Positions 5,479 to 25,605 of a stretch of DNA of 64,000 bases are shown in pieces. Made by a program: the position numbers and the translations under genes. The stretch comes from Nocardioides sp. ChNu-153. GTDB lineage: Bacteria > Actinomycetota > Actinomycetes > Propionibacteriales > Nocardioidaceae. Location: NCBI RefSeq assembly GCF_030466625.1, contig NZ_JADEVT010000001.1, positions 434,001 to 498,000 of the forward strand. Direction: 5' to 3'. The stretch's first letter is position 1. Each line of letters begins with the position of its first letter. Under the pieces are notes generated by a model. It made no database searches and was not told the origin of the DNA. It saw nothing but the letters and a program-made list of their open reading frames with translations.

Positions 5479-6585
5479 TCAGGCCTCGCCGGCCGCCAGC
5501 ACGCGCGCGGCCTCCCGCGCGGCCGCCGCGTTCGCGACGCCGGCGCGGGAGCCGGCCAGCTTGGCGCGCAGGTGCTCGGCGACGGTGACGGGCTCGTAGG
5601 CCGAGGCGCCGTCCGCGTCGCGGCAGGTGGGCAGGGTGGCGATGACGGCGTCGATGTCACCGTCGTGGAAGTACGCCGCGCTGCGCCGACGCCGGATCGT
5701 GCCGTCGACGATCGGCGGCTTGACGCGGTGCACGGTCGACATCCAGTGGTCGTTCGTCCAGCGCGCCATGAGGTCGCCGAGGTTGATGAGCAGCGCGCCG
5801 TCGGCCGGCTGGACGTCGTTCCACGACCCGTCCGCACCGAGCACCTGCAGGCCGGCGACCTGGTCGGCCCACAGCACGGTGACGATGCCGTAGTCGGTGT
5901 GGGCGCCCATGCCCGTGAGGTCGCCGTCGAGCTCGACGGCGCCCGGCTCGAGCGCGTAGTTGTTCATCCGCAGCACGTCGACGGAGTGACCGGTGAAGGC
6001 GTCGAAGTAGCCGGGCTCCAGGCCGAGCGCGTCCGCGAACAGCGTCGTCAGGGTGCGCGCGACGCGGCCGGCCTCGTCGAAGTACGCCGACACGGCTGCC
6101 CGGAAGCCCTCCGCCCCGAGGGTCTCGTCGGGCCACACGTTCTCCGGGTAGTCGGCCAGGGGCAGGTCGAGGCCGGGGAAGTCGGAGACCGCGAGGCCCA
6201 CGTTGAAGGCCTCGAAGAAGTCGTGCATGCGGTTCGACGGGGCGACGCCGAGGCTCAGGCTGAGCGACTCCGTCTTGGGCGGGCTGTAGCCCCGGTTCAC
6301 CTCGGGCGGGGTGCGGTAGGTCTTCTTGGCCTCCAGCGGCATCCCGAAGAACGCGTCGAGCCCGTCCGCGAATCCGCGGAGCACGTCGTCGGGCACGCCG
6401 TGGCCGACGACCTGCACGAAGCCGACGGTGCGCGCCGCCTCGTCGAACGCGGCGGCCGCGGCGGCGCGGGCGGCGGCGTCCCCGTCGCCCACGTAGGCGC
6501 TGATGTCGACGGTCGGCACGCGGAAGCCGTCGGGGCCGACGCGGGCGCCGCCGCGCACGGCCTCGGTGGTGGTCTCGCTGGTCAT
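5479..6585 (-). CDS. Isopenicillin N synthase-family 2OG/Fe(II) dioxygenase
   Basis: 368 residues. An N-terminal DIOX_N domain (VPTVDISAYVGDG through GFVQVVGHGVPDDVL) is followed by the 2OG-FeII oxygenase domain. The iron triad is visible: His229 and Asp231 in GMGAHTDYG and His286 in MSTVHRVKPP; the co-substrate RxS motif is in RRRRSAAYFHDGD. The family includes plant hormone oxidases, IPNS and the fungal thymine 7-hydroxylase. The gene follows the adenosine-deaminase-like gene by 34 bp with a strong ribosome binding site (AGGAGGACCCC) and is the last gene of the ABC transporter operon. Inference: it hydroxylates a nucleobase-like compound delivered by that transporter. Beta-lactam synthesis is unlikely because no cluster is present. 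Confidence 0.85.
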   Translation of the reverse strand: MTSETTTEAVRGGARVGPDGFRVPTVDISAYVGDGDAAARAAAAAAFDEAARTVGFVQVVGHGVPDDVLRGFADGLDAFFGMPLEAKKTYRTPPEVNRGYSPPKTESLSLSLGVAPSNRMHDFFEAFNVGLAVSDFPGLDLPLADYPENVWPDETLGAEGFRAAVSAYFDEAGRVARTLTTLFADALGLEPGYFDAFTGHSVDVLRMNNYALEPGAVELDGDLTGMGAHTDYGIVTVLWADQVAGLQVLGADGSWNDVQPADGALLINLGDLMARWTNDHWMSTVHRVKPPIVDGTIRRRRSAAYFHDGDIDAVIATLPTCRDADGASAYEPVTVAEHLRAKLAGSRAGVANAAAAREAARVLAAGEA

Positions 6586-6619
6586 GGGGTCCTCCTGGGG
6601 TACGGCGGAGCGGGCGGGG

Positions 6620-7693
6620 TCAGGCGGGGTCGGGCGGGTCCGCGAGCAGCGGGGCGCAGAGCTCGTCGACGCGCCGGGCGAGGTCGGCCTTGTCGCTCTC
6701 GTCGAGCCAGCAGGCCTCGACGGCGTTCCTCGTGAACGCGGCGAGCTCGGGCGCGCCGTACCCCAGCGCGTGGGCGAGCACGCGGAAGTCGTGGGTGGGG
6801 TCGGTGCCGAACATGGGCGGGTCGTCGGAGTCGATGGTGACGAGCAGCCCCGCGTCGACCATCTCGCGGATGCGGTGGTGGGTGCCGTCGCCGGAGCCGG
6901 AGTACCGCCCGATGTCGGAGCTGACCGGCGTGCAGTTGAACGGCACCCGCTCCTCGACGCAGCGCGCGGTGATCGCCGGGTCGTCGACCACGTGGTAGCC
7001 GTGGTCGACCCGGGAGCAGCCGAGCTCGTCGAGCAGGGTGAGGACGTGGGCGGGCGGGCCGGACTCGCTGTGCGCGGTACGACGCAGGCCGTGGCGCCCG
7101 GCGAGGCGGTAGGCCTCGACGAAGCGCCCGGGCGGGCCGTTGACCTCGGCGTAGTCGAGGCCGATGCCGAGCACCTCGTCGCGCCGGTCGGCGACGACCT
7201 GCTCGACGAGCTCGACGGCGTCCGCCCCGCTGCGCTCGCGGTTGATGCCGATGACCAGGCCGAACGAGATGCCCGTGTCGGTCTGGGCGTCGCGGGCGCC
7301 GGCGAGCACGCCGTCGAGGAGGCGGCCGTACGGCACGTCCGGGTGGCCGGGCGGGCTCAGCTGGATCTCGCGGTGCAGCACGTGGTGGTCGGCGCCGCCC
7401 TGCGTGAGCGACTCGTAGGTGATGCGGTGCAGGTCGTCGGCGTCGCGCACGAGCGAGCCGACGACGTCGAGGACGCGCAGGAACTCGCCGAGGTCCTCGT
7501 AGCTGCCGTGGTCGTAGAGCTCGTCGGCGCTGCGGCCCAGGTCGACGCCGTGCTTGCGGGCGAGGTCGACGACGGTGCCGGGCGCCACGGTGCCGAGGAG
7601 GTGGCAGTGCAGGCTGACCTTCGGCAGCGCCGCCACCAGCGCGTCGATCGCCGGGTCGGCGGGGGTCGGGGTGGAGTGGGCGAAGGTGCTCAT
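6620..7693 (-). CDS. Adenosine deaminase-family hydrolase, divergent active site
   Basis: 357 residues, normal for the family. It shows an amidohydrolase TIM barrel with the metal motif HCH (His29, His31) near the N-terminus, a VDHGYHV motif and TIDSDDPPMFG near the C-terminus, equivalent to the metal-binding Asp-Asp of adenosine deaminases. Two family positions differ. The usual HxHLDG reads HCHLLG, with Leu33 where mouse ADA has Asp19, which binds the ribose 5'-OH. The usual HAGE reads HSES, moving the acidic residue one position. The substrate is therefore probably not plain adenosine; a free base or analogue is possible. ATG at 7693 overlaps the permease stop by 4 bp, so it is coupled to the ABC importer. 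Confidence 0.8.
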   Translation of the reverse strand: MSTFAHSTPTPADPAIDALVAALPKVSLHCHLLGTVAPGTVVDLARKHGVDLGRSADELYDHGSYEDLGEFLRVLDVVGSLVRDADDLHRITYESLTQGGADHHVLHREIQLSPPGHPDVPYGRLLDGVLAGARDAQTDTGISFGLVIGINRERSGADAVELVEQVVADRRDEVLGIGLDYAEVNGPPGRFVEAYRLAGRHGLRRTAHSESGPPAHVLTLLDELGCSRVDHGYHVVDDPAITARCVEERVPFNCTPVSSDIGRYSGSGDGTHHRIREMVDAGLLVTIDSDDPPMFGTDPTHDFRVLAHALGYGAPELAAFTRNAVEACWLDESDKADLARRVDELCAPLLADPPDPA

Positions 7694-8559
7694 CGGCCCC
7701 GCCCCGCGTCGTCGCCGTAGCGGGCGAGCACGACCGACTCGACGAGCTGGGCGACGAGGTAGAGCACGAGCGACGCCACCGTCACGATGACGACGAGCGA
7801 CCAGGTCTCGTTGATCCGGCCGTTGCGAGAGGCCGACACGATGGCCGAGCCCATGCCCTGGCCGGTGGCCAGCCACTCCGCCAGCAGGGCGCCGGTGATC
7901 GCGCCGGGCACGGAGATGCGGATCGCCGCGAAGAGCGACGGCAGCGCCGCCGGCAGGGCGGCCCGGCGCAGGACGGTGCCCTCGCTCCCGCCGTACACGG
8001 TCACCACGTCGCGCAGCTGGGGTGAGACCGAGCGGAGGCCGAACACGACGGTCACGAGCGCGGGGAAGAGGACGACGACGCCGCTGATGAAGGCGACGGT
8101 GAGGAACCCGCGCCCGGCCAGCAGGATGATGATGGGCGCCAGTGCGACGAGGGGCACGGAGCGCAGCACCATCGCGACCGGCATGACGGCGCTCTCGACC
8201 GCGCGGAAGCGCACGATGAGCAGGGCGAGGACGACCGCGGCGACGAGGCCGACGACGAAGCCGGTGGCCGCGTCCTCCAGCGTCACCAGGAGCAGACCCA
8301 GCATGCCGTCGCGGTTCTCAGCCGCGTCGGGGTCCGTCACGAGGTGGGCCCACACGTCGGCGGGGCCCTTGCCGACGAAGTCGTCGACGTCCCACAGCGC
8401 GAGCCCGGCGACCCACAGCCCGACGACGACGGCGAGGACGAACGTCATCGTGACCAGGGTGCGGCCCACGGACCGCAGCACGGCGAGGCCCGTGCGGCTG
8501 CGCACCGGCTGCTGCTCCGGTCCCGTGTCGGCGTGCGGCGGGGTGAGGGTGGCGCTCAT
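7690..8559 (-). CDS. ABC transporter permease (BPD_transp_1 family), second copy
   Basis: 289 residues, inner membrane. About six transmembrane helices are seen, beginning with VTMTFVLAVVVGLWVAGLALW, and an EAA loop resembling VYGGSEGTVLRRAALPAALPS that contacts the ATPase. It is the SsuC/TauC/ThiX-type permease of importers whose binding proteins resemble NMT1/THI5. The start ATG at 8559 overlaps the upstream permease stop (ATGA), and its own stop overlaps the deaminase-like gene. Two different permeases in tandem imply a heterodimeric membrane unit. The charged N-terminal 35 residues are cytoplasmic. Confidence 0.9.
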   Translation of the reverse strand: MSATLTPPHADTGPEQQPVRSRTGLAVLRSVGRTLVTMTFVLAVVVGLWVAGLALWDVDDFVGKGPADVWAHLVTDPDAAENRDGMLGLLLVTLEDAATGFVVGLVAAVVLALLIVRFRAVESAVMPVAMVLRSVPLVALAPIIILLAGRGFLTVAFISGVVVLFPALVTVVFGLRSVSPQLRDVVTVYGGSEGTVLRRAALPAALPSLFAAIRISVPGAITGALLAEWLATGQGMGSAIVSASRNGRINETWSLVVIVTVASLVLYLVAQLVESVVLARYGDDAGRGR

Positions 8560-9341
8560 GCCGCGACCCCCTTCGACCACGGGCTGACGACGCGGCCGAG
8601 CAGCCCGAACGCGGCGTAGCCCAGGCCGGCGACGAGGGCACACAGCAGCCCGGTGGCCCAGGCCCGCTCGACGTCGAGGTTCTGCTGGGCCGTGACGAGC
8701 ACGCGGGCGACGCCGGGGCGCAGCCCGCCGGCGTACTCCCCGAGGATCGCGCCCAGGAAGGCGGCGGGAGCGGCGATCTGCAGGGCGTTGAGGATGGACG
8801 GGAGGGCGGAGACCAGCTGCACCTTGCGGAGCTGGGCCCACCGGCCGCCGCCGTACACGCTCACGACGTCGAGGCTGGTGCGCTCGGCGGAGCGCAGCCC
8901 CAGCACGGTGCCGACCACGGTCGTGAAGAAGACCGACAAGGTGGCGAGGGCGACCGCGGTGCCCGAGGGGGCGCCGTCCTCCGGGATGCCGATGACGATG
9001 TAGAGCACCGGCGCGATGGCGACGATGGGGATGCAGTAGCTGATGACGGCCAGCTGCATGATCACGCTCTCCAGCTGGGGCACGAGCAGCACGAACGAGG
9101 CCAGGGCGATGGCCGCGACGTTGCCGTAGACGAAGCCGACGAGGGCCTCCTCCACGGTCATCGAGAAGTTGGGACCGTAGTAGGCCCAGCCGTCGTCCAG
9201 CACCGAGGCGACGACGCCGCCGGGGGTGGGCACCCGGGCGTCGGCGAGCAGGGTGAGGGCCAGCAGCCACCACAGCAGCACGACCACGACGACGCCGGCG
9301 GCACCGACGAGCAGGGAGCGGGCACGTCCGGGAGCGCGCAC
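8556..9341 (-). CDS. ABC transporter permease (BPD_transp_1 family), first copy
   Basis: 261 residues with about six transmembrane segments, the first being SLLVGAAGVVVVVLLWWLLALTLL. The EAA loop is at VYGGGRWAQLRKVQLVSALPS. It lies 10 bp after the ATPase gene and overlaps the second permease by 4 bp. It shares the aliphatic-sulfonate/nitrate/pyrimidine-type permease fold with its neighbour but the two are clearly divergent in sequence, so they are a functional pair and not a recent duplication. Confidence 0.9.
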   Translation of the reverse strand: MRAPGRARSLLVGAAGVVVVVLLWWLLALTLLADARVPTPGGVVASVLDDGWAYYGPNFSMTVEEALVGFVYGNVAAIALASFVLLVPQLESVIMQLAVISYCIPIVAIAPVLYIVIGIPEDGAPSGTAVALATLSVFFTTVVGTVLGLRSAERTSLDVVSVYGGGRWAQLRKVQLVSALPSILNALQIAAPAAFLGAILGEYAGGLRPGVARVLVTAQQNLDVERAWATGLLCALVAGLGYAAFGLLGRVVSPWSKGVAA

Positions 9342-9351
9342 GGGGCGGCCC

Positions 9352-10188
9352 TCAGTCCGTGCCGTGCGAGCCGAAGAGCAGCTCGCTGGCCTGGTCGTGG
9401 AGGGCGTGGAACTCGGGCGTGCGCATCATCTCGGGCAGGCGGGGCCGCGGCAGGTCGACGTCGATGACGGCCTTCACCCGGCCCGGCCGCGGGCTCATCA
9501 CCGCGACCTGGTCGGACAGGAAGATGGCCTCGGAGATGCCGTGGGTGACCATGAGCGTGGTCGCCGGCTTCTCGGTCCAGATGCGGAGCAGCTCGACGTT
9601 GAGGCGTTGGCGCGTCATGTCGTCGAGCGCTCCGAAGGGCTCGTCGAGCAGCAGCACCGACGGTTTCACCACCAGCGACCGGGCGATCGAGACCCGCTGG
9701 CGCATGCCGCCCGAGAGCTGGGCGGGCTTGGCCTTCTCGAACCCGGTGAGGCCCACGAGCTCGACGAGCTCGGCGATGAGGGCCTCGTCGGGCTTCTGGC
9801 CGGACACCTCGAACGGCAGCCGGATGTTGGCGACCACCGAGCGCCACGGCAGGAGCGCGGAGTCCTGGAACGCGATCCCCAGCTCGTGGTCGCGGCGCAG
9901 CTCCAGCGGGGTGCGGCCCTCCACGAGCGCGGTGCCCGAGGTGGGCTTCTCGAGCCCGGCGAGGATCCGCAGGATGGTCGACTTGCCGCAGCCCGAGGGC
10001 CCGAGCAGCGAGAGGAAGCTGCCCTTGTCGGTCGACAGCGTGGCGTCGTCGAGCGCGGTCACGCTGCGCCGGCCCATCCGGAACGTCTTGGTCAGGTTCT
10101 CGATCCTGACCCCCGTGCCGGTGGAGGCGGGGGTGCCGGACGGCGTCCGGGGCGGGACGACCGCGGCGGCGGTCGGTGTCGTGCTCAC
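9352..10188 (-). CDS. ABC transporter ATP-binding protein (SsuB/TauB type)
   Basis: 278 residues. Walker A is GPSGCGKST, the Q-loop sits in the stretch ending [10 protein letters not shown], the signature is LSGGMRQR, Walker B is [12 protein letters not shown], and the switch His is in [10 protein letters not shown]. This is the single-ATPase form that works as a homodimer with the two permeases downstream. A Thr/Pro/Ala-rich 25-residue N-terminal extension precedes the domain. It lies 85 bp downstream of the binding-protein gene on the same strand. Confidence 0.93.
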
Positions 10189-10273
10189 GGGGGACTCCCT
10201 CGGGTGCTGCGGGGGCGGGCGGTGCGGACGCGGGCGTGCCGCCGCCCCGCGGGGGGCGGCGGCACGCGCGGGG

Positions 10274-11353
10274 TCAGGACGTCGGGACCTCGACGCCCTC
10301 GGGCAGCTCGGCCAGCTCGGGCTTCTCCTCGAGCAGCTCGGTGAGCAGGGAGAGGTCGAAGACGTCCTCGGCGCTCACGTCGATGTCGGCGGCGGCCAGG
10401 GTGGCCAGGTTCTCCTCGATGAGCGCGTCGCTGATGGTGAACAGGCCGTTGCTGACGACGTCGGGGGTGACGATGAGACCGGTCTGGACGCGGGCCTGCT
10501 CCAGCTCCTTGTCCATCGACAGGTCGAGGTCGGCGCCGTACTCCTCCACGGCGAGGCGGGCGGCCTCGTCGGGGTCGGCGAGCGCGTCCTGCCAGCCGCG
10601 GATCTCGGCCTCGAGGAACGCCTTCACCATCTCGGGGTCCTCCTCGATGGTGCGCTCGTTGGCGATGAGCGACTCGCCCACGAACGGCAGGCCGTTGTCG
10701 GCGAAGGGCAGGTTGGTGACCTCGTGGCCGTCCATCTGCACGGTGATGGACTCGTTGGTCAGGTAGGCGAGGAAGCCGTCGACCTCGCCGTCCACGAGCG
10801 GGGAGGGGTCGTACTCCACCGGCACCTTGGTGACGTCGGCCGGGTCGATGCCGTTGACCTCGAGCAGGGCGTCGAAGAGCGTCTCGTTGCCGCCGGCCTG
10901 CACACCGATGCGCTTGCCCACGAGGTCCTGCGGCGTCGCGATGTTGCCGCCGTCGGCCATCGACAGGATGGTGAACGGGTTCTTCTGGAACTTGGTGCCG
11001 ACGATCTTGATCGGGGCGTCCTCCTCGGCGACGAGCTGGGCCGTGGCGATCGCGTTGCTGAGGCCGAACTCCGCCTCGCCCGAGGCCACGAGGGTCTCGA
11101 TGGCGCCGGGGCCGGGGTTCATGGTCACGTCCCCGAAGCCGGCGTCGGCGTAGTGCCCGTTGGTGTCGGCGAAGAACTCGCCGGCGAACTCGGCGTTCTT
11201 GACCCACGAGAGCTGCAGGGTGACGTCGCCGAAGTCGCCGTCGGCGGCGTCGGACTCCTCCGAGCCGCCTCCGCAGGCGGACAGGACGAGCGCGGTGGCG
11301 CTGGCGACGGCGGCGCAGCGGGCGAACCGTCGGTGGCGCAGGGACAGCTTCAT
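10274..11353 (-). CDS. ABC transporter substrate-binding lipoprotein (NMT1/THI5-like)
   Basis: 359 residues. A twin-basic signal peptide ends in the lipobox LSAC, so the mature protein is membrane-anchored outside the cell. The body is an NMT1/SsuA/THI5-type periplasmic binding fold ([38 protein letters not shown]). This family binds heteroaromatic ligands such as thiamine pyrimidine precursors, riboflavin or nucleobases, as well as sulfonates. A purine or ureide ligand is inferred from the shared operator and the catabolic neighbours; the sequence alone cannot fix it. The ATG has a good ribosome binding site (GAGGAGAGACC). It is the first gene of an operon running to the dioxygenase at 5479. 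Confidence 0.9.
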
Positions 11354-11415: not shown

Positions 11416-11478
11416 AGGCTAGGAAGGGCGGGTAACGCCGCGACGTTGGCGGCGTTTCACCGCTGTTACGTTCGTTTC
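11416..11478 (-). promoter_or_regulatory. Promoter and operator array of the purine ABC operon
   Basis: On the minus strand a -10 box TAGCCT (11416-11421) is followed one base upstream by a degenerate palindrome, GAAGG-N4-GTAAC in plus-strand orientation (11423-11436). Further GTTTC half-sites lie at 11454 and 11474, the latter forming GTTAC-N4-GTTTC (11465-11478). Half-site starts are spaced 22 and 20 bp, about two helical turns each. The same layout occurs at three other promoters of the island. The leader to the ATG at 11353 is about 55 nt and contains a ribosome binding site. Confidence 0.6.
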
Positions 11479-11483
11479 AGTCC

Positions 11484-12002
11484 TCAGTAGCGGGTGCGGT
11501 CGACCTTGGCGAGCCAGGCGTCGAACGGCGCGGCGGCATCGTCCGGGCGCACCTGCACCACGGGCATGGCCCACTGCTCGCGGGGCGCGGCCAGCAGGTC
11601 GTAGAACGCGCGGTCGTCGAAGCCCCCGTGCGCGGCGTCGTCGCGGTCCGCGGCGTACACCACCCGGTCCACCCGCGCCCACAGCGACGCGGCCACGCAC
11701 ATCGGGCACGGCTCGCACGAGCTGAACAGCTCGCAGCCGGCCAGGGAGAAGTCGCCGAGGGCGCGGCATGCGGCGCGGATGGCCTGCACCTCGGCGTGCG
11801 CCGTCGGGTCCAGGGTCGGCGTGACGCGGTTCTGGCCGGTCGCGACGACCTCCCCGTCGCGCACGACGACGGCGCCGAAGGGCCCACCGCCGTCGGCGAC
11901 GTTCTCCACCGCGAGCGCGACGGCGCGGGCCAGCCAGGTGGCGTCGGTGGCCGTCGGGCCGGCTGCGGGCGCTGCGGGGGCTGCGGGGTGGGGTGCGCTC
12001 AT
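11484..12002 (-). CDS. guaD: Guanine deaminase-like nucleoside deaminase
   Basis: 172 residues, cytidine-deaminase fold. The zinc and catalytic motifs are intact: HAE in [14 protein letters not shown] and PCxxC in [15 protein letters not shown]. The substrate-side segment [23 protein letters not shown] resembles the GuaD/TadA-like group that deaminates guanine to xanthine. It is the last gene of the main operon, and its ATG overlaps the xanthine dehydrogenase stop by 4 bp, so its product xanthine is the substrate of its neighbour. The first 20 residues are a low-complexity Ala/Pro stretch. Adenine or another purine base as substrate cannot be excluded. Confidence 0.8.
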
Positions 12003-14773
12003 CGGGGGTCCTCGCTCGGGGTGGTCGGGGTGGCCGGGGTGGCCGGGGTGGCCGGGGTGGCCGGGGTGGCCGGGGGTGCGGCGGGCCGCTGCTGCGCGAG
12101 GCGCCACACCCGGTCGCGGCTCATCGGCACCTCGTGGGGGCGGACGCCGAGGGCGTCGCGCACGGCGTTGGCCATCGCGGCGGCGACGGGGTTGTAGGGC
12201 GCCTCGCTCATCGACTTCGCGCCGGCCGGGCCGAGGGTGTCGACGGTGTCGGCGAACAGCACGCGGGTGGGCGGCACGTCGGCCATCTGCGGCACCCGGT
12301 AGTCGCGGAAGGCGGCGGTGGTGACGGCCCCGTCCCGGGTCATCACCTCCTCGTGCAGCGCGCCGCCGACGGCCTGCGCGACGCCGCCCTCGACCTGCCC
12401 GCGCAGCTGTTCGGGGTTGAGCACGACGGCGGCGTCGACGCCCTGCACGGAGTCGAGCACCCGCACCTCGCCGGTGCGCGGGTCGACCGCGACCCGGAAG
12501 CCGTGCACGTTGAACGCGACCGAGCGCGGCGATCCGGTGTGGGACGCGCGGGCCGTGACGGGCGACTCCAGCACCCCCGGGCCGCCGACGGCGTCGAGGC
12601 GCGCCCGCAGGTCGGCGGCCGCGCGGGCGACGGCGGCGCCCGCGACGACGGAGCCCGTCGAGCCGTAGGCGCCGGTGTCGTAGCCCGACGTCGCCGTGTC
12701 GGAGGTGCGCAGCGTCACGCGCCCGACGGGCACGCCGAGGGCGTCGGCGACGAGCTGGGTGTGGACGGTGGCGGTGCCGTTGCCGAACTCCGCGGTGCCC
12801 ACGTCGACGGTGACCGACCCGTCGGGCGCGACGGTCACCGCCGCCTCGCTGTGGTGCCCGCGCGGGGGGATGGTCGCGATCATGGCCGCGGCGACCCCCT
12901 CGCCGAGCAGCCAGCCCTCGCCGGGTACGGCGGCACTCCCGCGGGTCTCGGACAGGGCGGTCTCGACGAGGTCGAGGCACTGGTCGAGCCCGTAGCTGCC
13001 GAAGACGAGGTCGGCGTCGGGCGGGCCGTTGACGACGAAGTCGTCGCCCGGCACGACGGCGTTGCGCCGCCGGACCTCGAACGGGCTGATGCCCACCTCG
13101 CGGGCCAGCTCGTCCATCGCCGACTCGATGCCGAGCACCACCTGGCCCAGCCCGTAGCCGCGGAAGGCGCCCGACGGCACGTTGTGGGTGTAGACGGCCT
13201 CGGCGTCGACCCGCTTGTTCGCGCAGCGGTAGAGCGCGACCGACTCGTGGCAGCCGTGGAACATGACGCCCGGCCCGTGGTTGCCGTAGGCACCGGTGTC
13301 GGACAGCACGTCGACGCGCAGCGCGGTGAGCACGCCGTCGGCGTCCGCGCCCAGCTCGACCTCGACGCGCATGGGGTGGCGCAGCGGGACCATCGTGAAC
13401 TGCTGCTCGCGGGTGAGCTCGAGCTGCACCGGCGCGGTCTCGCCGCGCTCGGCGAGCCGCAGCGCGGCGACGGCGACGAGGTCCTCGACGATCATCTCCT
13501 GCTTGCCGCCGAAGCCGCCGCCGACGCGGGCCGCGACGACGCGCACCGTGGCGGGGTCACGGTCGAGGATGCGCGCCAGCTCGTCGCGCACGAGGAACGG
13601 CACCTGGGTGCTGGTGCGGACGACGAGGGTGCCGTCGGGCTCGACCCAGGCGCGCGCTCCGTGGGTCTCCAGCGCGGCGTGGGTGACCCGCGCGGTGCGC
13701 CACGTGCCGCTCACCCGGTGGGCGGCGGCGGCGAGACCGGCGGCCACGTCGCCCACCTCGCCGTGGCTGCGCGCGACCGTGTTGCGGCCCGGGTCGGCGA
13801 TGCGGCTCTCCGGCCCCTTGTCGCCGTGGACCAGCGGCGCCCCCGGGGCCCGGGCCTCCTCGGGGTCGAGCACCGCCGGCAGGGGCGCGTAGGTGACCTC
13901 CACGAGGCGGGCGGCGGCGGCCGCCGTACGGGGGGAGTCGGCGACGACCGCGACGACGCGCTGGCCAACGAACCGCACCACGTCGTCGAGCACGCGGGTG
14001 TCGTCGGGGTCGTCGAGGCGGCTCTGGTGCCGCGCGGTCGAGAAGAGCACGCCGGGGACGTCGCGGTGGGTCAGCACGAGCCGCACCCCCGGCAGCGCCT
14101 CGGCGGCCCGCGCGTCGACGGCCACGACGCGCGCGTGGGCGTGGGGGCTCTGCACGAGGGCGACGTGCAGCACGCCGGCCTCGGGCAGGTCGAGGGTGAA
14201 CGGCTCGCGGCCCGTGACGACGCGGCGCGCGGCCGGGGCGCCGACGGAGCGGCCGAGGGCGGCGGTCGGGGCCGGGCCCGGCCCGCCCGGCGCGCCGTCC
14301 GGCTCCTCGACGTTGCACCGCCCGGCGAGGGCGTCGCGGATGGAGCGGTAGCCGGTGCAGCGGCACAGGTTGCCCTTGAACGTCCGCGCCACCTCCTCGG
14401 CGCGGGCGGGGTCGTCGGCCCCGGGCACGACGCCGCGCTCGTCGGCGAGGGCGGCCGCGGTCACGACGTACCCCGCCGTGCAGAAGCCGCACTGGAAGCC
14501 CGCCGCGCGGGCGAAGTTGCGCTGCACCGGGTGCAGGTCGTCGGGCGCCCCGAGGCCGGCGACGGTGGTGACGGCGCGGCCCTCGGCCCGGTGCAGCGGG
14601 AGCACGCAGGAGTGGGTGGCCGCACCGTCGACGAGCACGGTGCACGCGCCGCAGTCGCCCGCGTCGCAGCCCTTCTTCACCTCGAGGTGGCCGGTCTCGC
14701 GCAGGAACGTGCGCAGGCACTGGCCGGGGTGGGCGCCGGACGCGTCGACCGCGGTGCCGTTGACCTCGATCAC
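11999..14773 (-). CDS. Xanthine dehydrogenase, fused 2Fe-2S and molybdopterin subunits
   Basis: 924 residues, cytoplasmic. Domain 1 (about residues 1-160) has both [2Fe-2S] clusters: Cys36/Cys41/Cys44 in [10 protein letters not shown], and CGFC with CRCTGY further on. Domain 2 (about 180-890) is the molybdopterin-binding part, with [11 protein letters not shown], the [10 protein letters not shown] block, GTAEFGNGT and the catalytic Glu in MSEAPYNP. The FAD part is a separate protein encoded immediately upstream (GTGA overlap), so the order is unlike classical single-chain XDH and unlike three-subunit enzymes. It oxidises hypoxanthine and xanthine to urate. The last 30 residues are a Pro-Ala-Thr repeat encoded by a 9-bp tandem repeat. 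GTG start at 14773. Confidence 0.92.
12016..12073. repeat. 9-bp tandem repeat at the 3' end of the xanthine dehydrogenase gene
   Basis: About six copies of the 9-bp unit GGGGTGGCC (plus strand), the first copy variant (GGTC). On the coding strand they encode a repeated Pro-Ala-Thr tripeptide, so copy-number change would not shift the frame. The flexible tail lies outside the enzyme domain. Confidence 0.85.
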
Positions 14774-15621
14774 GCGGCCACCTCCTCGCTGCTGGTGGTG
14801 ACGGCCAGCTCGGCCAGCACCTCCGCGGCGAGGACGGGGGTGATCCCGGCCCGCCAGTCCGCGGGGCCGTGAGGGTCGTCGTACCAGGTCGTGACCCCGG
14901 CGAGCGCGTCGGTGACCTCGGCCGCGCCGGGCAGGGCGGGGAAGCGGAGGCGCAGGGGACGGGTGGTCGCGGCGGTGACCACCAGCGTGCAGGCGCCGTC
15001 GGCGTCGAGGCGGCCGACGACGAGCGCGGAGGAGCGGCCGACGGGGGTGAGGGCGAGCTGGCGGGAGGCGTAGCGAGCGGTGAGGGCCGCGGCGGGCACG
15101 TCGACGCCCCGCAGCAGCTCGTCGCCGGCGCGGTCGGTGCGGCCGGGGCCGGTGACGAGGTCGACGACGGGTACGGCGCGCGCCCCCCGGTCCGGCGACC
15201 ACAGGTCGGCGACGCCGTCGAGGGCCGCGGTCAGCGTGATCATCGCGCCCGCGGGGAGGCCGAGGCAGAGGTTGCCGCCGACGGTGGCGACGCTCCAGAC
15301 CTTCGACGACATGAGGAAGGCGTCCGCGCAGCGGCGCACGAGGGCGGCGGCGCTCGCGGTGGCCGGGTCGGCGGCGGGCCACGTCGCCGCGGCGGCGACG
15401 AGCTCGGCGACCGTGCAGGTGCCGGCGATCCGCAGCGCCCCGTCGTCGTCGCGGGCCGTCGGCGCCCAGCCCATGCCGGTCAGGTCGACGAGGCCGGTGA
15501 GGTGGGGCTGCGGGGTGGAGTAGAGCCACGACCCGCCCCCCAGCCACGCCTCACCGGGGCGGAGCACGAGGTCGTCGGTGGTGCGGGCGACGCGCACGCC
15601 CGTCAGCTCGGCGAGGTCCAT
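14770..15621 (-). CDS. Xanthine dehydrogenase FAD-binding subunit
   Basis: 283 residues. It is a molybdopterin-dehydrogenase FAD-binding domain with the FAD motif [21 protein letters not shown] near residue 30, a second FAD contact at [18 protein letters not shown], and a C-terminal CO-dehydrogenase flavoprotein domain. It passes electrons from the 2Fe-2S/Mo protein encoded next to NAD. Both ends are coupled: ATG at 15621 overlaps the regulator stop, and its stop overlaps the GTG of the Fe-S/Mo gene. The C-terminus is slightly shorter than usual. Confidence 0.9.
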
Positions 15622-16445
15622 CACTCGATCTCCCTCAGGCGCAGGTAGGCGTTGCTGATCGTGGTGACGCGCTCCCGCCCGGCGGCGCCGCGCGCGGCGA
15701 GGACGCCGTCGGCCAGCACGGCGGCCATGCTCATCGCGGCCGCGTAGGAGTCGAAGGCGAGCTCGGTGGCGATGGGGCACCCCAGCCAGGTGCCGCGCGG
15801 CCCGAGGTGGCGGCGGTGGTCGGCGGCGGTCGGGTCGGCGAGCAGCACGACGTCGGCGCCGGTCGCGACCGCGTCGGCGAGGAAGGCGCTGAACCCCACG
15901 GGACGGCGGCGGAACCCGACGAGGAGCACCGCGTCCCCGGCGTCCACGTCGGCCAGCTCCTCGCCCATGACCTGGCCGGGCAGGGGCGCGAGGCGCACGT
16001 CGGGACGGGCCTGGGCGAGCTGCTGGCGCAGGTGGAGCGCGACCGCGTGGCTGCCGCGCCACCCGACGACGTGCACGCGCCGGGCCGAGGCGAGGGCCGC
16101 GACGGCCGGTACGACGCCGGGCTGGCCGACGACGGTCGCGATCGTCGCCGCCTCGGCCCGGGCGTGCGCCGGCAGGCTCGCGGGTGCGCTGAGCTGGCGC
16201 GGCTCGCCCGCCACGCGCTGGGCCCGGAGGTGGTCGCGGACCTCGTCGAAGTCGGCGTACCCCAGGCTGCGGAACAGCCGGCTCATCGTGGCCTTCGAGA
16301 CGCCGGCCAGGTCGGCGAGCTCGGCGGCGCGGTAGGTCGCGAGGTCGTCGAGGTGCTGCAGCAGTGTGTCGGCGGCGCGGCGCTCCTGCGGCGACAGGGT
16401 GGCGCGGTGCGTGGCGATGCGCTCGTCGATCCGCACCGTCGTCAC
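15621..16445 (-). CDS. RpiR/MurR-family transcriptional regulator with SIS domain
   Basis: 274 residues. N-terminal HTH_6 domain (about 1-75) with the helix-turn-helix LADLAGVSKATMSRLFRSLGYADFDE; C-terminal SIS sugar-isomerase-like effector domain (about 115-250) containing VHVVGWRGSHAVALHLRQQL and DAVLLVGFRRRPVGFSAFL. RpiR proteins usually bind palindromes of the GAAA..TTTC type and sense phosphosugars; here the effector is more likely a ureide or purine intermediate. It is embedded in the operon between allantoate amidohydrolase and xanthine dehydrogenase, with GTGA and ATGA overlaps. It is the only regulator encoded in the island and so the best candidate for the GAAACNNNNGTTTC operators found at four promoters. 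Confidence 0.85.
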   Translation of the reverse strand: MTTVRIDERIATHRATLSPQERRAADTLLQHLDDLATYRAAELADLAGVSKATMSRLFRSLGYADFDEVRDHLRAQRVAGEPRQLSAPASLPAHARAEAATIATVVGQPGVVPAVAALASARRVHVVGWRGSHAVALHLRQQLAQARPDVRLAPLPGQVMGEELADVDAGDAVLLVGFRRRPVGFSAFLADAVATGADVVLLADPTAADHRRHLGPRGTWLGCPIATELAFDSYAAAMSMAAVLADGVLAARGAAGRERVTTISNAYLRLREIE

Positions 16446-17758
16446 CGCACCGGTCCCGTCGCAGGGGCGGGCACGGCGGCGGTGCCACCGGCCTCGTACG
16501 CCGCGGCCGCGGCGAGCACCGCGGCCTCGAGCGCGTCGGCGGCGCGGGCCACGTCGACCTCGCGGACGTCCTCGCCCGGGTGGTGGCTGATGCCGTCGTG
16601 GCAGCGCACGAACAGCATGCCGATGTCGGCGACGGCGACGACCGCCATGGCGTCGTGGCCCGCGCGGCTCCACAGGGCCATCGGGTCGGCGTCACCGGTC
16701 GCGCGGATGCCGTCGACGACGGCCTGCTGGAGCCACCCGGCGCACGGGGCGGCGGGCGCGCGGTGGGTCTCGCTCACCTCCAGCGTCAGGCCGCGCGCCG
16801 TGCAGGCGGCGGCGATGGCGGCGTGCAGCACCTCCCACGCGTGGTCGCGGTCGGCGTCGCGCGGCGCCCGCAGGTCGAGGCTGAGGTCGGCGCGGCCGGG
16901 GATGACGTTGACGGCGCCCGGCTGCACCTCGATCTGCCCGACGGTGGCGATGACGCCGAGCTCGCGGGCGAGGCGCTCGACCGCGGTGACGGCCTCGCTG
17001 GCGCCCACGAGGGCGTCGCGCCGCCGCTCGTACGGCGTGCCCCCCGCGTGGCGGGCCTCGCCGTGGACGGTCAGGGCGAAGCGCCGGGCGCCGGCGATGG
17101 TGGTGACGACCCCGAGCGAGGCGTCGGCGGCCTCGAGGTAGGGCCCCTGCTCGATGTGGGCCTCGAGGTAGCCGACGAGGCTGCCGGGTGTCCGGGCGGC
17201 CTCGTGGTTGCGCGCGGGGTCGAGCCCGAAGGCGCGGTAGGCCTGCGCGAGCGTGGTGCCGTCGCGGTCGGCGAGGTCCCACCAGGCGTCGTCCCACGTG
17301 CCGGCGAGGGCCTGGCTGCCGAGCAGGGCCGTGCCGAAGCGGGCGCCCTCCTCGTCGGAGAACGCGACCAGCTCGAGCGCGAAGGGGAGGTCCGCGACCC
17401 GGTCGCCGAGGCGCTGGGCGACGGCCACCGCCAGCACGACGCCGAGCATGCCGTCGAAGCTGCCGGCGTCCGGCACCGTGTCGAGGTGGGAGCCGAGGAG
17501 CAGCGCCGGGAGACCGGGCTCGCGGCCCTCACGCCGGCCGCAGAGGTTGCCCGCCGCGTCCTGCCACGTCGTCAGGCCGGCCTCCGTCATCCAGGTGCGC
17601 ACCAGCGCGTTGGCCGCCGCGTGCTCGGGCGTCAGGTGGAGGCGCTCGAGCCGGTCGGGCGCGGCGGAGAACGCGTCGAGCTCGGCGCAGCGGGCGAGCA
17701 CGCCGGCGGCGGTGGTGGAATCGGTCGTGGGGTCGGTGGTGGGGCCGGTGGTGGTCAT
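16442..17758 (-). CDS. allC: Allantoate amidohydrolase (M20 family)
   Basis: 438 residues. M20 metallopeptidase fold of the hydantoinase/carbamoylase type: metal-site motifs GSHLDTVPDAGSFDGMLG, FSDEEGARFG, and a C-terminal HHPGED with SRAGHDAM; the dimerisation insert contains EAHIEQGPYLE. The family hydrolyses N-carbamoyl compounds; with allantoinase and a PucG-like transaminase beside it, allantoate is the natural substrate (giving ureidoglycine, ammonia and CO2). N-carbamoyl-L-amino acid hydrolase is the main alternative. Start ATG 17758 overlaps the transaminase stop, and its own stop overlaps the RpiR start (GTGA). The first 15 residues are a Thr/Pro-rich tail. Confidence 0.85.
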   Translation of the reverse strand: MTTTGPTTDPTTDSTTAAGVLARCAELDAFSAAPDRLERLHLTPEHAAANALVRTWMTEAGLTTWQDAAGNLCGRREGREPGLPALLLGSHLDTVPDAGSFDGMLGVVLAVAVAQRLGDRVADLPFALELVAFSDEEGARFGTALLGSQALAGTWDDAWWDLADRDGTTLAQAYRAFGLDPARNHEAARTPGSLVGYLEAHIEQGPYLEAADASLGVVTTIAGARRFALTVHGEARHAGGTPYERRRDALVGASEAVTAVERLARELGVIATVGQIEVQPGAVNVIPGRADLSLDLRAPRDADRDHAWEVLHAAIAAACTARGLTLEVSETHRAPAAPCAGWLQQAVVDGIRATGDADPMALWSRAGHDAMAVVAVADIGMLFVRCHDGISHHPGEDVREVDVARAADALEAAVLAAAAAYEAGGTAAVPAPATGPVR

Positions 17759-19017
17759 GCTGCGGCCCCGGCGGTCGCGGCGGCTCCGTCGTACACCTCG
17801 CGGGCCGCGGCGACCCCGCCGCCGCCCGTCAGCGGCACGCCGTACCCGCGCAGGACCTGCTCGAGGGCGGCGAGGGTGGTGAGCACGGCGTCGCGGCGGG
17901 CGTTGTAGCCCATCGTGCCGATGCGCCAGACCCTGCCGTGGAGGGGGCCGAAGGAGGTGCCGATCTCGATGCCGAAGTCGGTGAGCATCGCCGCGCGGGC
18001 CGCGTCGCCGGGCACACCGTCGGGGATGTGGACGGCGACGACGTTGTGCATCTTGTGGGCGACGTCGCCGAAGACGGCGAGGCCGAGGCCCGTCACGCCC
18101 GCCAGCATGGCGTCGCCGTGGAGGCGGTGGCGCTCGACGGCCGCGTCGACGCCCTCCTCGACGAGGATGCGGGCGCACTCGCGGGCGCCGTAGAGCATCG
18201 TCGTGGCCTCGGTGTGGTGGTTGAGGCGGCGGGGGCCCCAGTAGTCCATGATCTGTGCCAGGTCGAGGTAGTTGGACGCGATGCGGGTGCCCGCCTCGCG
18301 CGCCACGTCGGCCTCCTCGCGGATGCCGGCCTCGACGTGGCGGCGCCCGTCGACGACCGCGACGGCGCGCGGCGAGAGCGTGATCGGGGCGCTGCCCGAG
18401 GGCCCGCCGAGGCACTTCTGCAGCCCGGCCGACGCGACGTCGACGCCCCAGTCGTCGGTGGCGAAGGCGTTGCCGCCGAGGGTGGCCGTGGCGTCGACGT
18501 AGAGGAGCGCGTCGTGGCGCCGGCAGATCTCGCCGAGGTGGGCGAGCGGCTGGGCCATCGTCGTCGCGGTGTCGCCGTGGACGACGGCGACGAGCTTCGG
18601 GCGGACGGCGCGGACGGCGTCCTCGACCTGCTCGGGGGCGAACACCGTGCCCCAGTCGGTCGCGAGCGTGTGGACCTCGGCGCCGCAGCGCTCGGCGATC
18701 TCCACGAGGAGGTGCCCGAAGCGACCGAACACCGGAACGAGCACCCGGTCGCCGGGCTCCAGCAGGCTGACCAGCGCCGCCTCGATGCCGGCCCGCGAGG
18801 TGCCGTCGACGAGCAGCGTCTGCTCGTTCGTCGTGCGGAACACCTCGCGGTAGAGCGCCATGGTCTCGTTCATGTAGCCGGTCATCGCCGGGTCGTACTG
18901 GCCCACGAGCGGCGCCCCCATCGCCCGCAGCACGCGGGGGTCGGCACTGATCGGGCCGGGGCCCATCAGCAGGCGCGCGGGTGGGTGGACCGGGGCGACC
19001 GGTGGGGCGACGGGCAT
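17755..19017 (-). CDS. pucG: PucG-like (S)-ureidoglycine-glyoxylate aminotransferase
   Basis: 420 residues. Class V aminotransferase of the AGXT/PucG group: GPGPISADPRVLRAMGAPLVGQYDPAM at the N-terminus, the PLP lysine in SAGLQKCLGGPSG, and DATATLGGNAF. In Bacillus, PucG transfers the amino group of ureidoglycine to glyoxylate, giving glycine and oxalurate. The neighbours (allantoate amidohydrolase directly downstream, allantoinase and uricase nearby) support this over alanine- or serine-glyoxylate transamination. ATG at 19017 lies 7 nt after a TAGCGT -10 box, so the first gene of the main operon is leaderless. The first 15 residues are a Pro/Val-rich extension. Confidence 0.82.
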   Translation of the reverse strand: MPVAPPVAPVHPPARLLMGPGPISADPRVLRAMGAPLVGQYDPAMTGYMNETMALYREVFRTTNEQTLLVDGTSRAGIEAALVSLLEPGDRVLVPVFGRFGHLLVEIAERCGAEVHTLATDWGTVFAPEQVEDAVRAVRPKLVAVVHGDTATTMAQPLAHLGEICRRHDALLYVDATATLGGNAFATDDWGVDVASAGLQKCLGGPSGSAPITLSPRAVAVVDGRRHVEAGIREEADVAREAGTRIASNYLDLAQIMDYWGPRRLNHHTEATTMLYGARECARILVEEGVDAAVERHRLHGDAMLAGVTGLGLAVFGDVAHKMHNVVAVHIPDGVPGDAARAAMLTDFGIEIGTSFGPLHGRVWRIGTMGYNARRDAVLTTLAALEQVLRGYGVPLTGGGGVAAAREVYDGAAATAGAAA

Positions 19018-19024
19018 GGCGAGG

Positions 19025-19077
19025 ACGCTATGAAACGGTCGTTTCCCGGGTGTTTCGGCGCGCGAACGGGTTGTTTC
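19025..19077 (-). promoter_or_regulatory. Promoter and operator array of the main purine operon
   Basis: Minus-strand -10 TAGCGT (19025-19030) sits 7 nt before the pucG ATG. One base further upstream is a perfect palindrome, GAAAC-GGTC-GTTTC (19032-19045), placed in the -10/-35 spacer, a position typical of repressor operators. Two more GTTTC half-sites start at 19052 and 19073, 11 and 32 bp from the first, i.e. on the same helical face. Confidence 0.7.
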
Positions 19078-19088
19078 GGGGCGGCGGG

Positions 19089-19140
19089 AGTGCGCAGGTT
19101 CAGTCGGGTGGGGCCTCGGCGACCGGACCTGCGCACTCGG
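19089..19140. repeat. Hairpin element, copy A
   Basis: An 11-bp perfect stem, AGTGCGCAGGT (19089-19099) pairing with 19127-19137, continues inward with further paired bases. The 50 bases from 19091 align without gaps to those from 25701 (about two thirds identical, by eye), with the 5' half and outer stem best conserved. It lies just behind the operator array of the main purine operon and ahead of the thioredoxin-like gene. Confidence 0.5.
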
Positions 19141-19180
19141 GCGGCGGAATGGGGGGCGCCGCGGAGGCGTTGGCCCGTCC

Positions 19181-19699
19181 GTGACCGGTCTGTGGATCCT
19201 GCTCGCCGCCGTCGTGCTCGCCGGCGGCCTCGGCCTGTGGCGCCTGCGCACCGACGGCGCCTTCCGGGGTGCGCGGCGCGGCGCCGCTCCTGACGCCGCT
19301 GCCGGTACGCCGGAGCCCGCCGCGGCTGCCCCCGCGGCCGGAACCGCGGCGCCGGACACCGAGCCGGTCGAGGCGGCCGAGCCCGGCGCGTGGGCGCGGG
19401 CGGCGGCTGCCGGCGTACCGGGGGAGCCCGGCGAGCGCGCCACGCTGCTGCAGTTCTCCTCCGCCTTCTGCGCCCCGTGCCGGGCCACGCGGCGCGTGCT
19501 CGGCGAGGTCGCCGCGGTGGTGCCGGGCGTGGCCCACGTCGAGGTCGACGCGGAGCACCACCTGCAGCTGGTGCGGGACCTGGACGTCCGTCGTACCCCG
19601 ACGACCCTCGTGCTCGACGCCGCCGGTCGCGAGGTCACCCGCGCCGCGGGCGCGCCGACCAAGCAGCAGGTGCTGGCCGGCCTCGAGGCCGCGCTGTAG
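19181..19699 (+). CDS. Membrane-anchored thioredoxin-like protein
   Basis: 172 residues. An N-terminal hydrophobic helix (LWILLAAVVLAGGLGLWRL) anchors the protein; an Ala/Pro/Glu-rich linker of about 55 residues leads to a thioredoxin fold with the redox motif CAPC in FSSAFCAPCRATRRVLGE and the cis-Pro in RRTPTTLVLD. The domain should face outward if the anchor is N-in, suggesting an extracytoplasmic thiol-disulfide role. It is the only plus-strand gene in the purine island, is divergent from pucG and ends 4 bp before the allantoinase stop. A functional link to purine breakdown is not evident. Confidence 0.85.
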   Translation: MTGLWILLAAVVLAGGLGLWRLRTDGAFRGARRGAAPDAAAGTPEPAAAAPAAGTAAPDTEPVEAAEPGAWARAAAAGVPGEPGERATLLQFSSAFCAPCRATRRVLGEVAAVVPGVAHVEVDAEHHLQLVRDLDVRRTPTTLVLDAAGREVTRAAGAPTKQQVLAGLEAAL

Positions 19700-19703
19700 G
19701 GAC

Positions 19704-21038
19704 CTAGCGCACCCGCTCCAGCATCCGCCCCCAGGTGTGGTCGGGGCGGTCGACGTCGACGGCGTTGCCGCGCACGACGGTGCGGACGACGCGGCCGCCG
19801 TACCGGATGCCGTCGTACGCCGAGATGGGGTTGCGGTGGGCCAGCTGCGCGGCCTCGACGCGGAAGTCGACGCCGGTGTCGTAGACGGCGAGGTCGGCGT
19901 CGGCGCCCACGGCGATGCGGCCCTTGTGGCCGAAGCCGACGAGGTCGGCGGTGTGGCGCGACATCCACCGGCTGACCTCGGCGAGCCCGATGCCGCGCCG
20001 GCGGGCCTCGGCGGCCATCACCGCGAGCCCGACCTGCAGCCCCGACACCCCGCCCCACGCCTGCTGGAGGTCGCCGTCGCCGCGGCCCTTCTCCTCCGCG
20101 GTGGCGGGGGAGTGGTCGGAGACGACGCAGTCGATGATCCCGGCGCGCAGCGCGGCCCACAGCTCCTCGCGGTTGCCGGCGTCGCGGATCGGGGGGCAGC
20201 ACTTGAACTGCGCCGCCCCGTGCGGCACCCGCTCGGCGTCGAAGACCAGGTAGTGCGGGCACGTCTCGACGGTCAGCCGCAGCCCCTCGGCGCGGGCGTC
20301 GGCGATCATCCCCAGCGCCCGCGCGCTCGACAGGTGCAGCACGTGCACCCGGGCGCCGGTCTCGCGGGCGCCGTCGATCACCTGCCGGATCGCCGCGGTC
20401 TCCGCCTCGTGGGGCCGCGAACGCACGAACGCGCGGTAGGAGCCGCCCGCCTCCTGCGGCGCCGCGGCCAGCACACCTGCGTCTTCCGCGTGCACGATCA
20501 TCAACCCGTCGAAGCGGGCCACCTCCCGCAGCGCGAGCAGGAACTGGGCGGGGTCCAGCGGCGGGAACTCGTCGACGCCGCTCGGCGCGAGGAAGCACTT
20601 GAACCCCAGCACCCCGGCGTCCCACAGCGGCTCGAGGTCGCCGACGTTGCCGGGCACCGCGCCGCCCCAGAACCCCACGTCGACCATGAGCTGGTCGCGC
20701 GCGACGGCCCGCTTGACGCGCAAGTGCTCCACCGTCGTGGTCGGCGGCAGGGAGTTCAGGGGCATGTCGACGAGCGTCGTCGCGCCGCCGAGCGCCGCGG
20801 CCCGCGTCGCGGACGCGAAGCCCTCCCACTCGGTGCGTCCCGGCTCGTTGACGTGCACGTGGGTGTCGACGACCCCGGGTACGACGTACGCCGTGTCGGC
20901 GGCCTGCACGACCACGCCCTCCGCCTCGTGCTCGTAGGCCTCGACGGCGGCGATCCGTCCCCGCTGGACGACGACGGTGGCGGGCACGAAGGCGTCCCCG
21001 ACGAGCACCCGCCGGCCGCGGACGGCGTCGACCCGCAT
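19704..21038 (-). CDS. allB: Allantoinase
   Basis: 444 residues. A cyclic amidohydrolase with the binuclear metal site: DTHVHVNEPGRTEWEGF, the carboxylated Lys in GFKCFLAPSG, HAED, HVLHLSSA and SDHSPAT. The pattern (NEPGRTEWEGF, PHYLVF, KCCPPIRD) is that of AllB rather than dihydropyrimidinase. It opens allantoin to allantoate. It is the last gene of the urate operon; ATG at 21038 overlaps the uricase stop (ATGA). A C-terminal MLERVR tail completes the usual composite beta-domain. Confidence 0.93.
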   Translation of the reverse strand: MRVDAVRGRRVLVGDAFVPATVVVQRGRIAAVEAYEHEAEGVVVQAADTAYVVPGVVDTHVHVNEPGRTEWEGFASATRAAALGGATTLVDMPLNSLPPTTTVEHLRVKRAVARDQLMVDVGFWGGAVPGNVGDLEPLWDAGVLGFKCFLAPSGVDEFPPLDPAQFLLALREVARFDGLMIVHAEDAGVLAAAPQEAGGSYRAFVRSRPHEAETAAIRQVIDGARETGARVHVLHLSSARALGMIADARAEGLRLTVETCPHYLVFDAERVPHGAAQFKCCPPIRDAGNREELWAALRAGIIDCVVSDHSPATAEEKGRGDGDLQQAWGGVSGLQVGLAVMAAEARRRGIGLAEVSRWMSRHTADLVGFGHKGRIAVGADADLAVYDTGVDFRVEAAQLAHRNPISAYDGIRYGGRVVRTVVRGNAVDVDRPDHTWGRMLERVR

Positions 21039-21958: not shown

Positions 21959-21959
21959 C

Positions 21960-22301
21960 TCAGCTCCCCTTGTAGGTGGTGTAGGAGTACGGGCTCAGCA
22001 GCAGAGCGACGTGCACGTGCGGTCCCGCGAGGGCCACGGTCAGCTCGACGCGCGGGAAGAAGGTGGCGCGCCCGGCGGCCGTGAACCACGGGCCGGTCGC
22101 GAACCGCAGCTGGTACGTCGCGGGGTCGAGCTCGGCGCCCGCGCCCGCCCGCTCCAGGGGCTCGTCCCAGCGCACCCGCCCGTCGCCGTCGGTGGTGGCG
22201 TGGGCCAGCGCGACGCCGTCGGCGTCGGCCAGGGTCACCTTGAGCCCGGCCGCCGGCACGCCGCGGGCGGCGTCGAGCACGTGGGTGGAGCAGGTGGTCA
22301 C
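21960..22301 (-). CDS. uraH: 5-hydroxyisourate hydrolase (transthyretin-like)
   Basis: 113 residues, normal size. N-terminal STHVLDAARGVPAAGLKV and the C-terminal family signature, here YSYTTYKGS in place of the common YRGS, are present, with the central conserved Arg in YQLRFATGPWF. It hydrolyses 5-hydroxyisourate to OHCU. The GTG at 22301 overlaps the OHCU decarboxylase stop (GTGA). It is second in the urate operon and directly upstream of uricase. Confidence 0.95.
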   Translation of the reverse strand: MTTCSTHVLDAARGVPAAGLKVTLADADGVALAHATTDGDGRVRWDEPLERAGAGAELDPATYQLRFATGPWFTAAGRATFFPRVELTVALAGPHVHVALLLSPYSYTTYKGS

Positions 22302-25598: not shown

Positions 25599-25605
25599 GC
25601 GCCGC

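Follow-up and report, generated by a model that had tools for sequence, protein, structure and literature searches.

In methylxanthine catabolism, Rieske N-demethylases of the NdmA type remove N-methyl groups oxidatively before xanthine dehydrogenase acts. In the adenosine deaminase (ADA) family, the HxxE motif is catalytic, with its glutamate meeting purine N1, and the aspartate of the HxHxDG motif binds ribose. Bacterial disposal of methylated and otherwise modified RNA and DNA bases is poorly mapped. A 2026 paper states that even in E. coli it is ‘not established’ (PMC13296781), and the discovery of N2,N2-dimethylguanine hydrolases shows that enzymes specialised for methylated bases continue to emerge (PMC13054789). 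Here we describe an operon of six closely packed minus-strand genes in Nocardioides sp. ChNu-153, located at positions 5479–11353 of the 64,000-nucleotide stretch that was analysed (the window; contig NZ_JADEVT010000001.1, positions 434,001 to 498,000), which encodes an importer, an ADA-family deaminase and a 2-oxoglutarate (2OG)/Fe(II) dioxygenase of the IPNS superfamily. We give about even chances to the view that this operon serves to take up a modified purine in the form of the base rather than the nucleoside, to remove the modification and to feed the product into ordinary purine catabolism.

The deaminase (6620–7693, minus strand; PF00962, A_deaminase, 191 bits) belongs to a clade in which the HxxE motif has become HxE. 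An earlier note on this DNA had described the motif as HSES in place of HAGE. The motif is indeed altered, but it is better read as the loss of one residue, with H-S-E-S-G-P-P standing against H-Q-S-E-D-A-P-P in a related group and the glutamate at Glu210. All 43 members of the clade show HxE, and the clade has an SH-aLRT value of 100 in a tree of the 99 sequences that remained after 8 of 107 had been removed; the tree was built by a quick method that retained the motif columns. The remaining sequences carry HxxE (51), HxxH (two, at related loci L117 and L118) or HCD(I/V)D (three; L063:18455–19486, L092:7743–8750 and L109:10702–11706). The zinc-site residues H29, H31, H208, H231, D290 and D291 are invariant in 72 aligned sequences, and the HxH, H, DHG and DD features of A_deaminase are all present. 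The AlphaFold2 model, with a mean predicted local distance difference test score (pLDDT) of 93.2, has the ADA fold and lies nearest to 4gxw (Z 46.6, 34–35% identity) and 3rys (Z 45.2).

Against TIGR01430 (adenosine deaminase, Add) the protein scores 212.8 bits, under the cut-off of 216.55, and two Add features, the HxxE motif and the ribose-binding aspartate, are absent. Leu33 occupies the HxHxDG aspartate position (LHCHLLGT), as the earlier note had claimed; we take these two positions to correspond to Glu217 and Asp19 of ADA. The ribose-binding aspartate is also missing elsewhere, being Glu in the adenine deaminase 3rys and Leu in 4gxw. The host genome contains three other ADA-family genes, all with HxxE (HAGE or HGGE), and one of them (L141) retains the ribose-binding aspartate (LHDHLDGG); these genes rule out the operon's deaminase as the cell's ordinary adenosine deaminase. 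Two related loci show unusual gene structures: L088:9980–19865, in an Acidimicrobiales genome, holds four ADA-family genes inside 10 kb, and the HxE deaminase of genome G210 (L203:9800–10810) is split across two frames.

The dioxygenase (5479–6585, minus strand) contains PF14226 (DIOX_N) and PF03171 (2OG-FeII_Oxy). The earlier assignment to the family of thymine 7-hydroxylase (T7H) holds, in that T7H is the closest PDB relative both by sequence (138.9 bits, with the next different protein at 102 bits) and by fold. The AlphaFold2 model (pLDDT 88.7) matches T7H with a Foldseek E-value of 1.7e-27 and a Z of 37.3, compared with 34.9 for TraH. The iron ligands H229, D231 and H286 and the 2OG residues R300 and S302 are present in all 32 homologues of more than 50% identity (dioxygenase-A, window included), and the IPNS-superfamily signature is complete. 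In T7H, the residues that touch the free base are Asn87, Glu122, Arg190, Tyr217, Phe292 and Asn294, with Asn87 bonding O2 directly (PMC4787775). Asn87, Glu122, Arg190 and Phe292 correspond to N97, E125, R206 and F306, all four unchanged throughout the 32 dioxygenase-A sequences, and Tyr217 corresponds to Y232 (Tyr in 29, Phe in three). The position of Asn294 is Asp308 in all 32.

Several loci contain additional or interrupted dioxygenase genes. A second copy, 56–58% identical, lies upstream of the deaminase at L046:8122–9252, L059:8928–9986 and L028:8159–9217, and these second copies, found in some Nocardioides/Marmoricola-type operons, branch among dioxygenases that lack a deaminase. At L077:8932–10000, the match to a Nocardia dioxygenase beside the deaminase is broken in two, which would fit a frameshift.

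The HxE deaminases keep recurrent company. All 42 HxE loci of a scan of named genomes were examined, using approximate gene calls from a script based on third-codon-position GC content (GC3) and from tblastn. An oxygenase was counted as adjacent when it lay within 2.6 kb at an identity of at least 50% (dioxygenase-A), 42% (a second type, dioxygenase-B) or 45% (a flavin mononucleotide (FMN) monooxygenase). By this measure 39 of the 42 loci have one: dioxygenase-A in 28 (five of which also have dioxygenase-B), dioxygenase-B alone in three and an NtaA/DmoA-family FMN monooxygenase in eight. The FMN enzyme scores 417 bits against a family cut-off of 279.7, and on the deaminase tree 2OG and FMN enzymes must have been exchanged two or more times. 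The occupation of one slot by unrelated oxygenases suggests a single oxidative step. Cleavage of C–N bonds is common to NtaA-type enzymes and to the 2OG and Rieske N-demethylases.

A nucleobase-type importer, counted from one component within 9 kb, accompanies 40 of the 42 deaminases. It is of the THI5-type ABC class in 21 loci and of the NCS1 class in 19; the two loci with neither include L049, where the contig extends 2.1 kb upstream. Xanthine dehydrogenase (XDH) is encoded within 10 kb in 13 of the 42, including the differently arranged L062 and L075. The names FCY1-like, guanine deaminase, PucG, amidohydrolase, Rieske and, in part, NCS1 were given to partners by eye, and hmmscan matches of the NCS1, FCY1-like and Rieske examples all fell under curated cut-offs. 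At Nocardia, Mycolicibacterium and Actinomadura loci, a regulator of the XRE-cupin type, a permease of the NCS1 type and either one or two dioxygenases surround the deaminase. A plasmid of Rhodococcus qingshengii RL1 (NZ_CP042916.1, L205:9874–14143) carries an XRE regulator, an NCS2 symporter, a dioxygenase-A (61%) and a dioxygenase-B, with no deaminase. Records from Aminobacter, Phaeobacter and Streptomyces gave no usable purine-type context, and plasmid records from Burkholderia were unannotated over the stretches covered.

Among 48 non-HxE locus sequences on the tree, dioxygenase-A homologues (54–56% identity) occur only beside the HxxH deaminases of L117 and L118, and the neighbourhoods of four HxxE sequences (L094, L095 and L120) contain weaker 2OG homologues (30–35%) on the opposite strand. 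Rieske-like proteins and Bmp-type ABC systems are found near related HxxE deaminases of many Acidimicrobiia and at two Kaistia loci. The actinobacterial HxxH deaminases themselves (L117:9968–11008 and L118:4127–5158) stand beside a dioxygenase-A, a dioxygenase-B and a Rieske-like protein, with a Bmp-type ABC importer at the same loci. Four importer types, THI5-ABC, NCS1, NCS2 and Bmp-type ABC, thus accompany these enzymes. The picture of one ABC importer and one dioxygenase has to be widened: the dioxygenase slot can hold an unrelated FMN monooxygenase, and the ABC importer can give way to an NCS1 permease or, on the Rhodococcus plasmid, to an NCS2 symporter.

Genome samples give the same association from another side. 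In a family sample of 149 genomes, a dioxygenase of at least 70% identity is present in 10, the window and nine others, and the deaminase is next door in all 10; the dioxygenase reading frame of one genome, G087, holds a stop. Three further genomes have distant dioxygenase copies only. In a class sample of 394 genomes, a deaminase match at E ≤ 1e-80 occurs in 14, seven with HSESGPP and seven with HASEDAPP, and each of the seven HSESGPP genomes has the dioxygenase next door. The module is uncommon.

Within the operon, all parts of the three functions are present by Pfam on one strand and tightly packed, in agreement with the earlier claim that they form a single operon. The substrate-binding lipoprotein of the NMT1/THI5 family (10274–11353; PF09084, 154.8 bits) has as its closest PDB chains 4nmy (86 bits) and 3ix1, the N-formyl-aminopyrimidine binding protein ThiY (64.6 bits). 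It is followed after 85 bp by the ABC transporter ATPase (9352–10188; PF00005) and then by permease 1 (8556–9341) and permease 2 (7690–8559), both PF00528 (BPD_transp_1). The best NCBIfam models for the ATPase are of the nitrate/SaoA type, none of them above its own cut-off among the best 25 of 188 matches. Permease 1 overlaps permease 2, permease 2 overlaps the deaminase gene, and 34 bp separate the deaminase from the dioxygenase; GC3 of the operon genes is 0.97–0.99. With its permeases and ATPase, this NMT1/THI5-family binding protein makes up a candidate importer of the THI5/ThiY type, a class that takes up pyrimidine precursors.

The operon is preceded by a promoter/operator (11434–11482, minus strand) with GAAAC boxes starting at 11478 and 11458, followed by CTTCCTAG. 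Similar minus-strand boxes stand before uraD (22895, 22875 and 22854), PucG (19077, 19056 and 19045) and a formamidase-like gene (25660 and 25626); the last, a formamidase/acetamidase-family gene at 24438–25607, has this promoter type in common with the purine genes. Ten of the 15 minus-strand GAAAC words in the 64 kb fall within these four promoters, and the plus strand has three. In each promoter the boxes are phased and a CCTAG- or CATAG-like element follows them. A search with TGAAACGNACGTAAC, allowing up to three mismatches, returned four sites, every one in the four promoters, and a search with GTAACNNNNNTGAAAC returned its own site and one more at 59.8 kb. Paired GAAA(C/T) boxes with a start-to-start distance of 15–29 (22 in most loci, 20 in the window) are found upstream of the binding-protein gene in 17 of 18 loci, the window included and L057 being the miss, against a background of 61 in 3400 random 500-nt stretches of the same loci. 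The description of the operon as lying under a purine operator is thus borne out, and the clustering in four promoters together with the 17 of 18 loci rules out a reading artefact. As the same boxes stand at the importer operon and at purine genes, the importer, deaminase and dioxygenase share a control signal with purine breakdown. A GTAAC/GTTNC palindrome, tried as an alternative form of the operator, gave no matches. The RpiR-family regulator encoded nearby (15621–16445, minus strand; PF01418) is a candidate reader of the boxes.

Together, the purine operator, the nucleobase importers, the free-base dioxygenase fold, the interchangeable oxygenases and the altered base deaminase argue for catabolism of an alkylated purine. 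In the pathway that we favour, the THI5-like ABC system would take up the modified base, and the dioxygenase, using 2OG and O2, would hydroxylate an alkyl carbon on the ring or on the amino nitrogen, the alkyl group leaving as an aldehyde. The ADA-like enzyme would hydrolyse the 6-amino or 6-alkylamino group, and the product, hypoxanthine or xanthine, would pass through the cluster's XDH to urate and on to allantoin. We infer an N-alkylated adenine-type substrate, dealkylation by the oxygenase and the order of the steps from this arrangement. E. coli Add deaminates N6-methyladenosine and not N6,N6-dimethyladenosine (PMC13296781), which implies that some alkylated adenines need another step first; oxidation before deamination would therefore suit N6,N6-dialkyl adenines. 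Deamination first would suit N1-alkyl adenines. A specific form of the latter, an undescribed pathway that breaks down N1-substituted adenines (1-methyladenine released by RNA turnover, for example) and in which the T7H-like dioxygenase then removes the N1 group, seems to us unlikely, if still worth setting out. A glutamate shifted by one residue, as in the HxE clade, or a histidine, as in L117 and L118, would make room for an N1 alkyl group. In this view the oxygenase role could pass between unrelated enzymes, and the importer role among different kinds of nucleobase carrier.

A number of observations weigh against the alkylated-purine pathway. Three HxE deaminases have no nearby oxygenase (L063, L082 and L068, the last with 1.5 kb of contig on one side), and six of the eight FMN-monooxygenase loci come from closely related Agreia, so these loci are not independent. 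Among 16 genomes of the family sample with a dioxygenase of at least 62% identity, six carry copies (62–66%) with no deaminase adjacent or elsewhere above 174 bits. In the class sample, dioxygenase-A (E ≤ 1e-130) is present in 16 genomes and lacks a deaminase beside it in nine. The residue signature of such copies is nearly identical to that of the paired enzymes. T7H is not supported as the sister of the dioxygenase on the tree, though it is the best PDB match. Its Glu, Arg, Tyr and Phe contacts are present in 6jyv and 9ovh too, so that the discriminating residue is the Asn that bonds base O2 (Trp in both of these structures, Arg in TraH), and this Asn is shared with L120 and with the first of the L196 copies, both of them distant bacterial homologues. 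No formaldehyde-handling genes were noticed, although no systematic search for them was made. Finally, T7H acts on a pyrimidine and FCY1-like deaminases are encoded in Agreia and some other clusters, which leaves a place for pyrimidines. As dioxygenases exist without the deaminase, a strict two-way partnership was dropped: the link is one-sided, with the dependence running from deaminase to oxygenase. The earlier note would have counted its proposal as refuted if the dioxygenase were not conserved with the operon elsewhere; the proposal survives this check, since the dioxygenase is conserved there, though it also occurs alone.

These solitary copies (nine of 16 genomes) could mean that the dioxygenase is a passenger with an unrelated substrate of its own. 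Its adjacency in 28 of the 42 clade loci, many with genes that overlap or nearly touch, and in seven of seven HxE-deaminase genomes of the class sample makes this highly improbable. A methylated pyrimidine route, in which a bacterial thymine/5-methylcytosine 7-hydroxylase is coupled to an ADA-like enzyme acting on a cytosine-type base, would account for T7H as closest PDB relative, for the largely kept base contacts, for the NCS1 permeases of 19 loci and for the FCY1-like deaminases of the Agreia clusters, L060, L117 and L118. It fits poorly with the operator common to purine genes and with an XDH lying next door in loci of other layouts. The window proteins that were scanned included none recognised as an isoorotate decarboxylase, with no model search aimed at it, and the ADA-family enzymes known to us act on 6-aminopurines. 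We regard this route as quite unlikely.

The purine operator would equally serve ordinary purine catabolism with a back-up oxidation, the dioxygenase being an alternative xanthine/hypoxanthine hydroxylase next to a plain adenine deaminase. Fungal XanA is a functional parallel for such an enzyme. One of the structures closest to the operon's deaminase is the adenine deaminase 3rys, and the Rhodococcus plasmid combines an NCS2 symporter and two dioxygenases with no XDH annotated within 12 kb. In the window, however, XDH is encoded in the same cluster, the genome has other HxxE members of the ADA family, and the clade-wide HxE change and the replacement by an NtaA-type monooxygenase are left unexplained; we judge this explanation, too, to be quite improbable. 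Catabolism of cytokinins (N6-isopentenyladenine, zeatin), in which the side chain would be oxidised and the N6 substituent taken off, appears very unlikely. It would agree with the ADA-family fold and the purine cluster, and a cytokinin deaminase known in the amidohydrolase superfamily provides a precedent (PMC13054789). No feature pointing to an isoprenoid side chain was seen, however, and a deaminase of that kind could work without any oxygenase. Because its substrate is likewise an N-alkylated adenine, this explanation overlaps with the alkylated-purine pathway.

The operon adjoins a purine cluster on the same strand. Its upstream neighbour is a guanine-deaminase-like CDA-fold protein (11484–12002; PF00383), which also adjoins the operon in related loci. 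XDH follows as an XdhC+A fusion and FAD subunit (11999–15621), and beyond the RpiR-family gene lie urate and ureide genes (16442–22801) for an allantoate amidohydrolase family member, a PucG-like class-V aminotransferase, an allantoinase-like amidohydrolase, uricase and OHCU decarboxylase. A plus-strand open reading frame at 19181–19699, thioredoxin-like by eye, interrupts this row. Downstream of the operon are housekeeping-type genes, also named by eye. The host genome is 3.75 Mb; among named genomes, Nocardioides and its relatives have the operons most similar to this one. Farther away, the window contains a cobalamin riboswitch (RF00174, 96.3 bits; 33437–33618) followed by a gene that appears by eye to encode a FecCD-type permease.

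The families of all the module's enzymes are known. In literature searches outside subscription journals we recognised no paper on the deaminase/dioxygenase pairing, on the HxE clade or on the exchange of oxygenases. If the favoured pathway is correct, it adds a dioxygenase of the 2OG type with free purine bases as substrates, and an ADA subfamily whose catalytic motif has been rebuilt, in a module that recurs in several actinobacterial families. The dioxygenase resembles T7H of Neurospora crassa (5c3p) in its IPNS-type fold (root-mean-square deviation 2.2 over 313 residues), its iron and 2OG residues and five base-pocket residues, but it is only 29% identical over the aligned part, has Asp where T7H has Asn294, and is a bacterial enzyme of a purine operon. 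The adenine deaminase 3rys (AAur1117) shares the ADA fold, the zinc-site motifs and the lack of the ribose-binding aspartate, whereas it retains HxxE, has Glu rather than Leu at the Asp19 position and falls in a separate clade. We take 3ou8, titled adenosine deaminase, to be the adenine deaminase PA0148. The nearest solved structure, 4gxw (Burkholderia COG1816 amidohydrolase, EFI-505188), likewise has Leu at the Asp19 position but keeps HAGE; it was an EFI target, deposited as an adenosine deaminase/COG1816 amidohydrolase. The Rieske systems of the NdmA type differ from the window's operon, which has a 2OG/Fe enzyme, and Rieske-like proteins occur near deaminase relatives outside the HxE clade. 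NdmH, the N2,N2-dimethylguanine hydrolase, offers a recent parallel, being an amidohydrolase with an N-methylated purine base as its dedicated substrate. It is, in contrast, hydrolytic and related to guanine deaminases, and in the main text of its description the words ‘dioxygenase’ and ‘operon’ do not appear (PMC13054789).

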